DNA from: an uncultured Actinomycetes bacterium
GTDB lineage: Bacteria; Actinomycetota; Acidimicrobiia; Acidimicrobiales; RAAP-2
Reading direction: 5' to 3'
Assembly: GCA_903893745.1 (NCBI GenBank)
Contig: CAITNF010000016.1
Coordinates: forward strand, 1 to 64,000
DNA: 64,000 nucleotides
Below, in pieces: positions 29,039 to 31,901 of the stretch. Below the pieces are notes generated by a model. That model saw only the letters and a program-made list of their open reading frames with translations. It was not told where the DNA came from and did no database searches. Numbering within the stretch: the stretch's first letter is position 1; every line of letters begins with the position of its first letter. Made by a program: the position numbers and the translations under genes.

Positions 29039-29082
29039 GGGATTAAATCGGCTTGGGCCGCAACGACGGGCCGCGGGGGCGG

Positions 29083-29088
29083 TACCTT
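29083..29088 (+). promoter_or_regulatory. -10 element of dnaG
   Basis: TACCTT lies exactly 6 bases before the ATG at 29095. The reading frame is open further upstream, but this geometry and the usual DnaG N-terminus favour 29095. Confidence 0.5.
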
Positions 29089-29094
29089 CTGTGC

Positions 29095-30933
29095 ATGGCT
29101 ATTTCCGAAGGTGAGATTGCACAGGTTCGTGCAGCAACCGACATTGTGGCTCTCATAAGTGAGTACGTAGCGCTTAAGAAATCGGGGCGGCGCTGGAGTG
29201 GACTCTGCCCATTTCACGGCGAAAAAACACCATCCTTCTCCGTCAACGCCGAAGAGGGGCGCTACTACTGTTTTGGCTGTCGTGCTTCGGGCGATCAAAT
29301 CACCTTCGTGCGTGAGATGCAGCATCTTGATTTCATCGAAGCCGTTCGACAGTTGGCAGACCGCGCGGGCATTGAACTACACGAAGACGCCAACGCCGGA
29401 CCAGCTCGAAAGGAACGCCAAGAGTTCCTCGCCGCTATGGAAAAGGCGGTGGTCTGGTATCACGAGCGCTTGTTGAATGACCCAGAGGCCCGACCGGCCC
29501 GTGAATACCTACGCTCGCGCGGCATCTCGGGCGACGTGGCTCGGCAGTTTCAGTTGGGATGGGCGCCTGATGAGTGGGACTCGTTATCGACGGGATTGAA
29601 CTTAAACGCGAAAGTTCTCGAAGGAACGGGACTGGGTTTTGTCAATAAGCGAGATCGACGACAAGACGCGCTACGTGCTCGAATTATCTTTCCGATTTTT
29701 GACCCTAGTGGCAAAGCCATCGCGGTTGGCGGTCGAATACTGCCGAGCGCTCAGACGCCAGTTCGACCCGATGGCCGAGTCGAGCCAAAGTACAAGAACA
29801 GTCCCGAAACAGTCATTTACTCCAAGCGTCGCACGCTCTACGCGTTGAACTGGGCAAAGGACAACATCATCAAGTCGGGTGAAATTATTGTCTGTGAGGG
29901 GTACACCGACGTCATTGCATTTTTCGCAGCGGGGATGCCCCGGGCCGTCGCCACGTGCGGCACCGCGCTAGGTGAGGAACACTTTCGCACTATGCGTAAT
30001 TTTGCCAAGCGCATTGTGTTGGCGTACGACGCTGACCAGGCTGGCCAGAGCGCGGCGGCCTCGGTCTATCAGTGGGAGCGCCAGCACGAAGTCGACGTGG
30101 CGGTGGCGAGGTTGCCTAAAGGTAGCGATCCAGCAGATTTAGCCCAGCGAGACCCCGAAGCTCTCCGCACGGCCATCGCTGACGCATTGCCGTTCTTACA
30201 GTTCCGCCTAGAACGAGTACTCGATGGAGCCAATCTCCACACCGTTGAGGGCCGGGCTCGAGCGGCCGAACTCGCCATCGCTGTCATTAGTGAACACCCC
30301 AGTGAGCTCGTGCGCGATCAGTACGTGATGGAAGTCGCCGATCGACTCCGTCTCGAGTCGTCAACGCTACGCAACCGCGTGAGTGAAGCCGCTCGTAGTG
30401 GTGTTCGCGTTATCGCCAACGAACCCCGAGAAGAGACGACGACGCCAATGGTGCGCGAATTTAGCCCCCAGCCGCGGCCGGGACTCGAGGCACTACGGTT
30501 GTGCATCCACTTTCCGAGCGATGTACGAACGCGACTAATTAGTGAGTATTTCATCAATGAGACGCAGCGTGAAATTTTTGAGGGAATTATTAGTGACCGT
30601 CCACTCTCCGAGGTCGTCGACGACCTCGAGCGACGAGGAGAAGCGGAAGCCGCCCATGTTTTAAGCCAGCTCGTGGTTGATGAACTCGATCGTGACTACA
30701 CCGGTGAGGACGTCACTGCGGTGATTTCACAACTACTGCGCAGTGCGGTAGGTGAGGCATTGAAGAATGTCGAACGCGAGCTGCGCGACGGCACCATGGC
30801 GCCCGACCTCGCCATGGTGACCATACGAGACGTGAAGGAGCGTCTGGCACTGTTGGAATCGACCCGCAGCGAAGAGGTGGAGCAGAACCTTCGCCAGTGG
30901 CTCCTCGGCAGAAAGATTTCGTCCCCGTCGTGA
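29095..30933 (+). CDS. dnaG: DNA primase
   Basis: A 612-residue primase that makes RNA primers for replication. The N-terminal CHC2 zinc ribbon uses Cys38, His41, Cys59 and Cys62 (CPFH ... CFGC). The RNA polymerase core contains the TOPRIM signatures EGYTDV near 268 and AYDADQAG near 311. The C-terminal helicase-interaction region is present and diverged. The ATG at 29095 gives MAISEGEIAQVRAATDIV, the family-typical start. It is followed by a sigma-factor gene overlapping by four bases, a remnant of the primase-sigma arrangement of the macromolecular synthesis operon. Confidence 0.97.
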   Translation: MAISEGEIAQVRAATDIVALISEYVALKKSGRRWSGLCPFHGEKTPSFSVNAEEGRYYCFGCRASGDQITFVREMQHLDFIEAVRQLADRAGIELHEDANAGPARKERQEFLAAMEKAVVWYHERLLNDPEARPAREYLRSRGISGDVARQFQLGWAPDEWDSLSTGLNLNAKVLEGTGLGFVNKRDRRQDALRARIIFPIFDPSGKAIAVGGRILPSAQTPVRPDGRVEPKYKNSPETVIYSKRRTLYALNWAKDNIIKSGEIIVCEGYTDVIAFFAAGMPRAVATCGTALGEEHFRTMRNFAKRIVLAYDADQAGQSAAASVYQWERQHEVDVAVARLPKGSDPADLAQRDPEALRTAIADALPFLQFRLERVLDGANLHTVEGRARAAELAIAVISEHPSELVRDQYVMEVADRLRLESSTLRNRVSEAARSGVRVIANEPREETTTPMVREFSPQPRPGLEALRLCIHFPSDVRTRLISEYFINETQREIFEGIISDRPLSEVVDDLERRGEAEAAHVLSQLVVDELDRDYTGEDVTAVISQLLRSAVGEALKNVERELRDGTMAPDLAMVTIRDVKERLALLESTRSEEVEQNLRQWLLGRKISSPS

Positions 30934-31775
30934 CCGCGACTTCTCGGCGATTGGTCGGCGGCCTTAAACTCATCGCCCCGCTGAGCGTCGACGAGGAACG
31001 TCGACTGCATCCGATTATTCAAAAGGGTCGAGAGGCCGCGATCGCCCTGAACTCCTCGTCGTTGATTGATTCCGCGCAGCGACGTCGATTACTGCGACTA
31101 CGACACGCGGGTCAAGAGGCTGAGTCGCTGTTGCTCCAAGCAACGTGTGGTCTCGTGCGGACCAGGGTGATGGAACGGGGCTATCGGTTTGGTGATGAAG
31201 ATTTGGAAGCTGCGGGCATTGAAGGTCTCGTCAATGCGCTGGCTCGATTCGACCCCGAGCAGGGTACCCGTTTCTCCACGTACGCGAATTACTGGATTAT
31301 GAAGTTAGTGAATCAAGCAATTCAACAACAGGCCGGACTGACTGATTCCGAGATGCGCCTCATTCTGTCGCTGCAAAAATTTGAACGTAGCGCCAATGGT
31401 CGACGGCTGACCAAACGAGAAGTTGCCGACACCCTTCAAATTCCGATGAGCAAGGCTGTTGAGGTCATGCAGATGAGTCGTGACCTCAACGAACGACGTT
31501 TTGAATCAACTGAGTTCACGGACGATGCAGATTTCAGTTCCAAAGCTGATCGAGTCGACGCCCCCGCTTGGGTCATTGACGAACTCCGACGCCTTTGTGC
31601 TCGCGACTTCGATTCGTTTTGGCAGTTCACATTTCGCACTATGTCAATTGAAGAGTTAGCGAGGAATAACGGTATTTCTCGACAGGGTATGAGCAAGCGC
31701 ATAGATCGGTGTCGACGCGCAGTGCGCGAAAGCCCCGAAGCGGCACGGCTCCTGCATTGGTTTGACCAGCAGTAG
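30930..31775 (+). CDS. Divergent short sigma-70 family factor
   Basis: A 281-residue sigma-70 family protein translationally coupled to dnaG (GTGA). Region 2 lies at about 63-136 and includes GDEDLEAAGIEGLVNALARF and FSTYANYWIMKLVNQAIQ (115-131). Compared with primary sigma factors, the paired tryptophans of region 2.3 become Tyr-Trp, and the positions that contact the -12 base (Gln and Thr in the housekeeping factor) become Lys and Asn. Region 3 lies at about 158-190. Region 4 ends in a helix-turn-helix, MSIEELARNNGISRQGMSKRIDRCR (239-262 in part), without the usual RTLEEVG core. There is no region 1.1. It is more likely an alternative factor than the housekeeping one; whether a normal rpoD exists lies outside this window. 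Confidence 0.85.
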   Translation: MTATSRRLVGGLKLIAPLSVDEERRLHPIIQKGREAAIALNSSSLIDSAQRRRLLRLRHAGQEAESLLLQATCGLVRTRVMERGYRFGDEDLEAAGIEGLVNALARFDPEQGTRFSTYANYWIMKLVNQAIQQQAGLTDSEMRLILSLQKFERSANGRRLTKREVADTLQIPMSKAVEVMQMSRDLNERRFESTEFTDDADFSSKADRVDAPAWVIDELRRLCARDFDSFWQFTFRTMSIEELARNNGISRQGMSKRIDRCRRAVRESPEAARLLHWFDQQ

Positions 31776-31818: not shown

Positions 31819-31891
31819 TCCCAGATAGCTCAATTGGCAGAGCAAGCGACTGTTAATCGCTAGGTTGCAGGTTCGAGTCCTGCTCTGGGAG
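31819..31891 (+). tRNA. tRNA-Asn (anticodon GTT)
   Basis: The acceptor stem TCCCAGA/TCTGGGA is perfect. The D arm reads GCTCAATTGGCAGAGC, the anticodon stem AGCGA/TCGCT encloses CTGTTAA with anticodon GTT, and the T arm contains GCAGGTTCGAGTCCTGC. The discriminator is G at 31891 and a CCA is encoded at 31892-31894. A TAGAGT box at 31793-31798 may be its -10 element. Confidence 0.97.
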
Positions 31892-31901
31892 CCAACATTT
31901 T

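Follow-up and report, generated by a model that had tools for sequence, protein, structure and literature searches.

A divergent sigma-70-family gene behind dnaG in an actinobacterial genus: a candidate rpoD rewritten in place

Introduction

The principal sigma factor is regarded as a constant of bacterial genomes, and the linkage of its gene to the primase gene dnaG and the division of sigma factors into groups are covered in the available portions of PMC2824700 and PMC4598750. The locus considered here lies in a stretch of 64,000 nucleotides from an uncultured actinobacterium (contig CAITNF010000016.1), which is called the window throughout. A preliminary description of the window had reported an unusually short sigma factor in the position behind dnaG, proposing that it either reads a different promoter class or is a relic of rpoD. 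This raises the question of where the gene, here called Dg, comes from, and of what has taken over the usual task of a sigma factor in this position. A description of Dg was not found among the papers listed by searches for dnaG-linked or primary sigma factors of this group, and the available text of PMC4255298 does not discuss it.

The Dg locus

The reading frame of Dg is open and yields the reported product of 281 residues. Its GTG start overlaps the TGA stop codon of dnaG, and the gene lies in the usual place of rpoD, as had been described. The locus contains the following features:

29053-30933, plus strand: dnaG primase; homologues occupy this position in 38 of 39 loci from other genomes
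30930-30933, plus strand: GTGA, in which the dnaG stop and the Dg start overlap (GTGA in 30 of 38 loci, ATGA in 2 of 38)
30930-31775, plus strand: Dg, 281-aa sigma-70-family protein, GTG start, stop included (open frame, matches to Sigma70_r2 and TIGR02937, present in 88 of 99 genomes of the genus)
31819-31894, plus strand: tRNA-Asn, a landmark 3' of the dnaG-linked sigma gene, also in sister genera

The internal ATG at 29095 is the likely start of dnaG, and an in-frame GTG upstream of Dg (30897) falls within dnaG. The GTGA overlap suggests that translation of the two genes is coupled. No anti-sigma partner was seen beside Dg among the listed open reading frames of the window, and the convergent gene past the tRNA reads, from this listing alone, as one of the cyclopropane-fatty-acid-synthase type. 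A promoter scan around dnaG and Dg was uninformative, giving 2 matches vs. 1.2 expected, both on the opposite strand. Because 38 loci of other genomes exhibit the identical layout, we rejected an assembly or frameshift artefact.

Distribution, selection and losses

Scanning contigs of one genome per species yielded 39 Dg-encoding loci in other genomes, which were 58-75% identical and mostly came from records titled Acidimicrobiaceae or actinobacterial MAGs. The dnaG gene lies immediately 5' of Dg in 38 of them, and the remaining locus lies at a contig edge and begins within the gene. Some of the records showed peculiarities of their own. Two of them (L016 and L029), titled Acidobacteria and Candidatus Saccharibacteria, hold the dnaG-Dg pair of the genus and are probably mislabelled or mixed bins. 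The dnaG match is in two pieces in L007 and L023, which points to a frameshift, a gap or an error in the sequence, and the Dg match of L036 (4965-5804) ends at residue 239 of 281 with the frame closing soon after, so that region 4 is either frameshifted towards the C-terminus or genuinely truncated. In a search of 296 genomes across the phylum, only the four sampled members of the genus matched along Dg. The other 30 matches covered about profile positions 16-189 only and belonged to frames of 392-457 aa, which are ordinary RpoD-like sigma factors; no full-length relative of Dg was found among the 292 phylum genomes outside the genus.

Selection was assessed on the 36 of 40 rows (the window plus the 39 loci) that were common to Dg and dnaG, with L036, L042 and L043 excluded. 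The dN/dS ratios of Dg were mostly 0.04-0.13 in the closest pairs, like those of dnaG, and the medians over 107 usable pairs were 0.22 for Dg and 0.18 for dnaG, with the median dN of Dg being 1.26 times that of dnaG. This similarity indicates that selection constrains Dg in the main clade and that the gene has not become a pseudogene. The earlier idea of a relic of rpoD is thus retained for the position of the gene, which most likely descends from rpoD, judged by gene order and by comparison with sister genera (see below), but not for its state, since purifying selection resembles that on dnaG and no decay is seen in the main clade.

Within the genus, Dg is kept in 55 of the 59 genomes that are at least 90% complete. 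Six of the 11 genomes lacking it could not be assessed, because they gave no dnaG match (G584, G599, G603) or their contig ends in dnaG (G618, G628, G645). In the other five (G102, G233, G595, G650, G619), tRNA-Asn comes next after dnaG, and a sigma gene is missing between them. Four of these form one clade of the dnaG tree, sister to the pair G055/G648, which carries a very divergent Dg; G619 branches elsewhere, so that at least two losses have occurred. Consequently, Dg is not universally essential and is dispensable in some species, and its loss in five genomes argues against an essential housekeeping role.

Domains and predicted fold of Dg

The sequence models agree in placing Dg in the sigma-70 family without assigning it to a named type. 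It exceeds the cut-offs of Sigma70_r2 (27.6 bits vs. 24, Pfam) and of the sigma-70 superfamily model TIGR02937 (44.7 vs. 42.9 bits) and stays under those of all more specialised models applied: 47.1 bits vs. 354 for the RpoD C-terminal model TIGR02393, 57.8 vs. 464 for the SigB subfamily, 37.1 vs. 189.6 for FliA/WhiG and 35.3 vs. 234.35 for SigB/F/G. The match of Sigma70_r4 to residues 235-267 is weak (15.6 bits, Pfam cut-off 24.1), and Sigma70_r3 gives 13.5 vs. 25.3 bits, with helices at residues 162-169 and 173-189 aligning with region 3 of SigA; group 4 (ECF) sigma factors consist of domains 2 and 4 and have no region 3. The following parts of the gene are of special relevance:

31254-31337, plus strand: regions 2.3-2.4 (aa 109-136), with Y121, K125 and N128 at the positions of W433, Q437 and T440
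31494-31562, plus strand: region 3.2 linker (aa 189-211), eroded, pLDDT below 50 for aa 191-209
31638-31733, plus strand: region 4.2-like helix-turn-helix (aa 237-268), -35 contact positions recoded

In regions 2.1-2.4, 49 of 76 columns are invariant, a high share that becomes moderate in regions 4.1-4.2 (23 of 57) and drops to 2 of 23 in region 3.2. Region 1.1 is missing, in agreement with the preliminary description, and region 1.2 has had its first helix replaced. The absence of region 1.1 is not distinctive, because the most canonical sigma factor of the same genome, the 317-aa protein C13, lacks it as well. The reported lack of the region 4 core needs to be revised: Dg does have a region 4, in recoded form (SIEELARNNGISRQGMSKR). 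The Dg segment TMSIEELARNNGISRQGMSKRI aligns with the canonical RTLEEVG...TRERIRQIE, and the predicted structure contains helices at residues 240-246 and 251-266, as in a helix-turn-helix.

The closest relatives of Dg among solved structures are the mycobacterial and Streptomyces SigA/HrdB proteins. An AlphaFold model based on 21 sequences (mean pLDDT 78.6, pTM 0.63) predicts helices for regions 1.2-3.1 and 4 and leaves the region 3.2 linker unresolved. The Foldseek and VIA match lists for this model are filled by sigma chains, with SigA and SigB as best matches; the rmsd values are about 28 over all domains and mostly 5-7 over residues 1-190, and the matches therefore support the domains, not their arrangement.

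Rewritten contact residues

The Dg segment YANYWIMKLVN (aa 118-128) aligns with the canonical YATWWIRQAIT, confirming the reported changes from Trp-Trp to Tyr-Trp in region 2.3 and from Gln/Thr to Lys/Asn at the -12 contact positions. In the numbering of E. coli sigma-70, as transferred to this alignment, these are W433 to Y, Q437 to K and T440 to N. The first was observed in 15 of 16 Dg sequences, the second in all 16 and the third in 12. All 16 sequences also carry A or L for Q406 and A for E407, at positions which we take to be core polymerase contacts, as well as Q for E585, K for Q589 and S, T, A or H for R588. The substitutions hold in Dg members down to about 30% identity. Among 45 other sigma factors of the dnaG-linked type (one from an unlinked fragment), Q437, Q406, E407, E585 and Q589 are invariably present, and W433 in 43.

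The available text of PMC2613000 connects Q437 and T440 of sigma-70 with the -12 base and states that the exchanges E585Q and R588H relax the specificity at -33. According to the accessible part of PMC4593229, the upstream bubble edge is held by W433 and W434, a pair described there as universally conserved among group 1 sigma factors. Because positions contacting the -10 and -35 elements and the polymerase are changed in nearly all members, we read Dg as an alternative sigma factor for a different promoter, and this conserved rewriting is, at the sequence level, best explained by the use of a different promoter class. Since effects of changes at E585 and Q437 are already known in E. coli (PMC2613000, available text), the conserved substitutions allow a direct test.

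Gene order and phylogeny

The 3' side of dnaG was extracted from 60 genomes, 48 of them from outside the genus, of which four ended at a contig edge. In all 44 non-genus genomes with room, a sigma gene best matched by the canonical query adjoins dnaG on the same strand, the coordinates also putting it adjacent in L072 and L110, and in 10 of the 12 genus genomes the sigma gene next to dnaG is Dg. Sister genera of the same family encode an RpoD of 405-527 aa there, the order dnaG, sigma gene, tRNA-Asn is common to the Dg locus and genera g3, g4 and g5 of family f1, and the overlap of -4 between dnaG and the sigma gene also occurs in G229. Because this order is common to the sister genera, the most likely origin of Dg is an rpoD that was rewritten at its own locus.

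The dnaG-linked sigma factors of sister genera score 367.5, 352.6, 332.7 and 324.9 bits with TIGR02393 (cut-off 354), a sister-genus fragment unlinked to dnaG in its assembly reaches 286.6, and scores in other families go up to 388. The cut-off is passed in only 14 of 46 genomes searched, and no sigma factor reached it in any of the 13 genus genomes scanned, the best value being 302. An apparently parallel case is seen in family f3 (L110-L113, from G130, G211, G267 and G014), whose dnaG-linked sigma factor is more mildly eroded and scores 219-263 bits with the RpoD model.

In a tree of 107 rows, from which group 3 sigma factors were absent, all Dg sequences fall into one clade (SH-aLRT 100). 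Its stem is very long and attaches via open forks beside dnaG-linked sigma factors of f1 genera g2 and g3. A further tree included group 3, with six of 20 group 3 loci left out to limit its size and L189 and L197 excluded as not being sigma frames. Dg again forms its own clade there (100/100), which falls within neither the WhiG/FliA nor the SigB/F/G clade; it attaches to group 3 as a whole (97/80) at a node flagged as a meeting of long branches. Neither of two groupings was rejected by AU tests: Dg with sister-genus rpoD gave p values of 0.356 and 0.193, and Dg with C13 gave 0.14. As the trees cannot place the very long stem of Dg, the argument for its descent is that of gene order. They give Dg no firm place in a characterised alternative group, a placement that would have spoken against the preliminary description, and we regard membership in a standard alternative group as unsupported, because Dg forms its own clade and scores far under the cut-offs of the respective models.

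Dg thus shares features with several known types. It resembles the dnaG-linked RpoD/SigA (group 1) of the macromolecular synthesis operon in its place after dnaG, the order of sigma regions and the best structural matches, but differs in lacking region 1.1, in the changed Trp dyad and Q437, in the recoded -35 helix and eroded finger, and in its low score against the RpoD cut-off. Group 2 proteins of the SigB or HrdA type likewise have no region 1.1 and keep regions 2-4, whereas Dg is far from group 1 in sequence and far below the SigB model cut-off. Its size, its divergent regions 2.2-2.4 and 4.2 and a possible sister relationship in one tree recall group 3 (FliA/WhiG, SigB/F/G), from which it is set apart by its own clade, model scores far below cut-off, the absence of an adjoining anti-sigma gene and other residues at key positions.

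A second sigma factor, C13

The genome of the window contains four sigma-70 genes, namely Dg, one of ECF size (a 168-aa frame), the 283-aa C15 and C13 (G000:C13). The search for a separate sigma factor thus turned up a canonical one elsewhere in the genome, although C13 stays under the RpoD cut-off, as it does in all genomes throughout the order. The canonical -10 and -35 contact residues are present in 22 of 22 C13 sequences. The identity of C13 is 93-98% in eight further genomes of the genus but 75% in G055, and no C13 was found in G161, a MAG of about 160 contigs. Mean pairwise identities within the genus are 89.8% for C13 (45 pairs) vs. 46.1% for Dg (55 pairs), and outside the genus 84.4% for C13 vs. 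51.9% for the dnaG-linked sigma factor (66 pairs each). C13 is therefore the probable housekeeping sigma factor. Points against this are that it was missed in G161, its scores under the RpoD cut-off and the value of 51.9%, which suggests that the dnaG-linked sigma factor may have been secondary in much of the order already. We rejected Dg as the principal sigma factor of the genome as unlikely, because its contacts are altered and C13 is present.

Possible history and function of Dg

Judged from sequence, it appears moderately probable that Dg goes back to the dnaG-linked rpoD of this lineage, having been rewritten in place and now serving as an alternative sigma factor, with C13 in charge of housekeeping. 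C13 would have taken this role before or during the rewriting of the rpoD at the dnaG locus. Freed of housekeeping, the latter would have shed its N-terminal extension, its region 3.2 finger would have eroded, and residues for the core polymerase (region 2.2), the -12 base and melting junction (regions 2.3-2.4) and the -35 element (region 4.2) would have changed before the rewritten protein settled under a new constraint. Dg would still be produced from the dnaG message through translational coupling, and it most likely would bind core RNA polymerase via region 2 as a minor alternative sigma factor, steering it to a small set of promoters with non-standard -12 and -35 bases. A broader proposal, which we advance with slightly more doubt than belief, is that the whole genus demoted its dnaG-linked rpoD and a group 2-type paralogue runs housekeeping, Dg being a new class of sigma factor with rewritten polymerase, -10 and -35 interfaces that is made in step with primase.

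An unlikely alternative is that a foreign or unrelated alternative sigma factor, group 3-like or mobile, displaced rpoD in the ancestor of the genus, so that Dg would have inherited the place and not the descent. The very long stem and the joining of group 3 would fit such an event, but that node carries the long-branch warning, the AU test does not reject the grouping with sister-genus rpoD (p 0.356), and without group 3 rows Dg stands beside the dnaG-linked sigma factors of f1, if at open forks. The displacement would also need an exact swap preserving both the four-base overlap, as found in G229, and the tRNA-Asn, and no full-length relative is seen in the 292 other genomes of the phylum.

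The changed region 2.2 residues could mean weak or no binding to the core polymerase, and together with the altered Trp dyad, the eroded finger and the coupling to primase they speak for a protein that keeps a polymerase- or DNA-binding fold but no longer initiates, acting as a regulator, e.g. a core-polymerase competitor or a link of transcription and replication. We consider this quite unlikely, as the promoter-DNA regions 2.3-2.4 and 4.2 are among the conserved parts of Dg and known group 3 sigma factors likewise differ at the core-contact and Trp-dyad positions. A slow decay, with Dg as a relic of rpoD that has no function of weight, is very unlikely: the losses in five genomes, in at least two events, and the very divergent members of some subclades would agree with decay, but the frame is intact in 36 loci across wide divergence, its dN/dS is like that of dnaG, regions 2.1-2.4 are largely invariant and nearly all of the most complete genomes keep the gene.

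Under the preferred reading of an rpoD rewritten in place, a group 1 sigma factor appears to give up its role. As the series runs from canonical in sister genera to rewritten, more divergent and finally lost, it allows one to ask how a primary sigma factor is replaced, and also how sigma factors gain new promoter specificity.

Further sigma factors of the genus

In the C13-type sigma factors L137 (G055), L157 (G102) and L158 (G233), regions 1.2 and 2.1 are separated by long insertions, and region 3 has an insertion that contains Cys. Of these three genomes, two have lost Dg. An extra, very divergent RpoD-like sigma factor (L160, G233:C75) with an end branch of 4.97 in the 107-row tree is encoded in G233, which has lost Dg.
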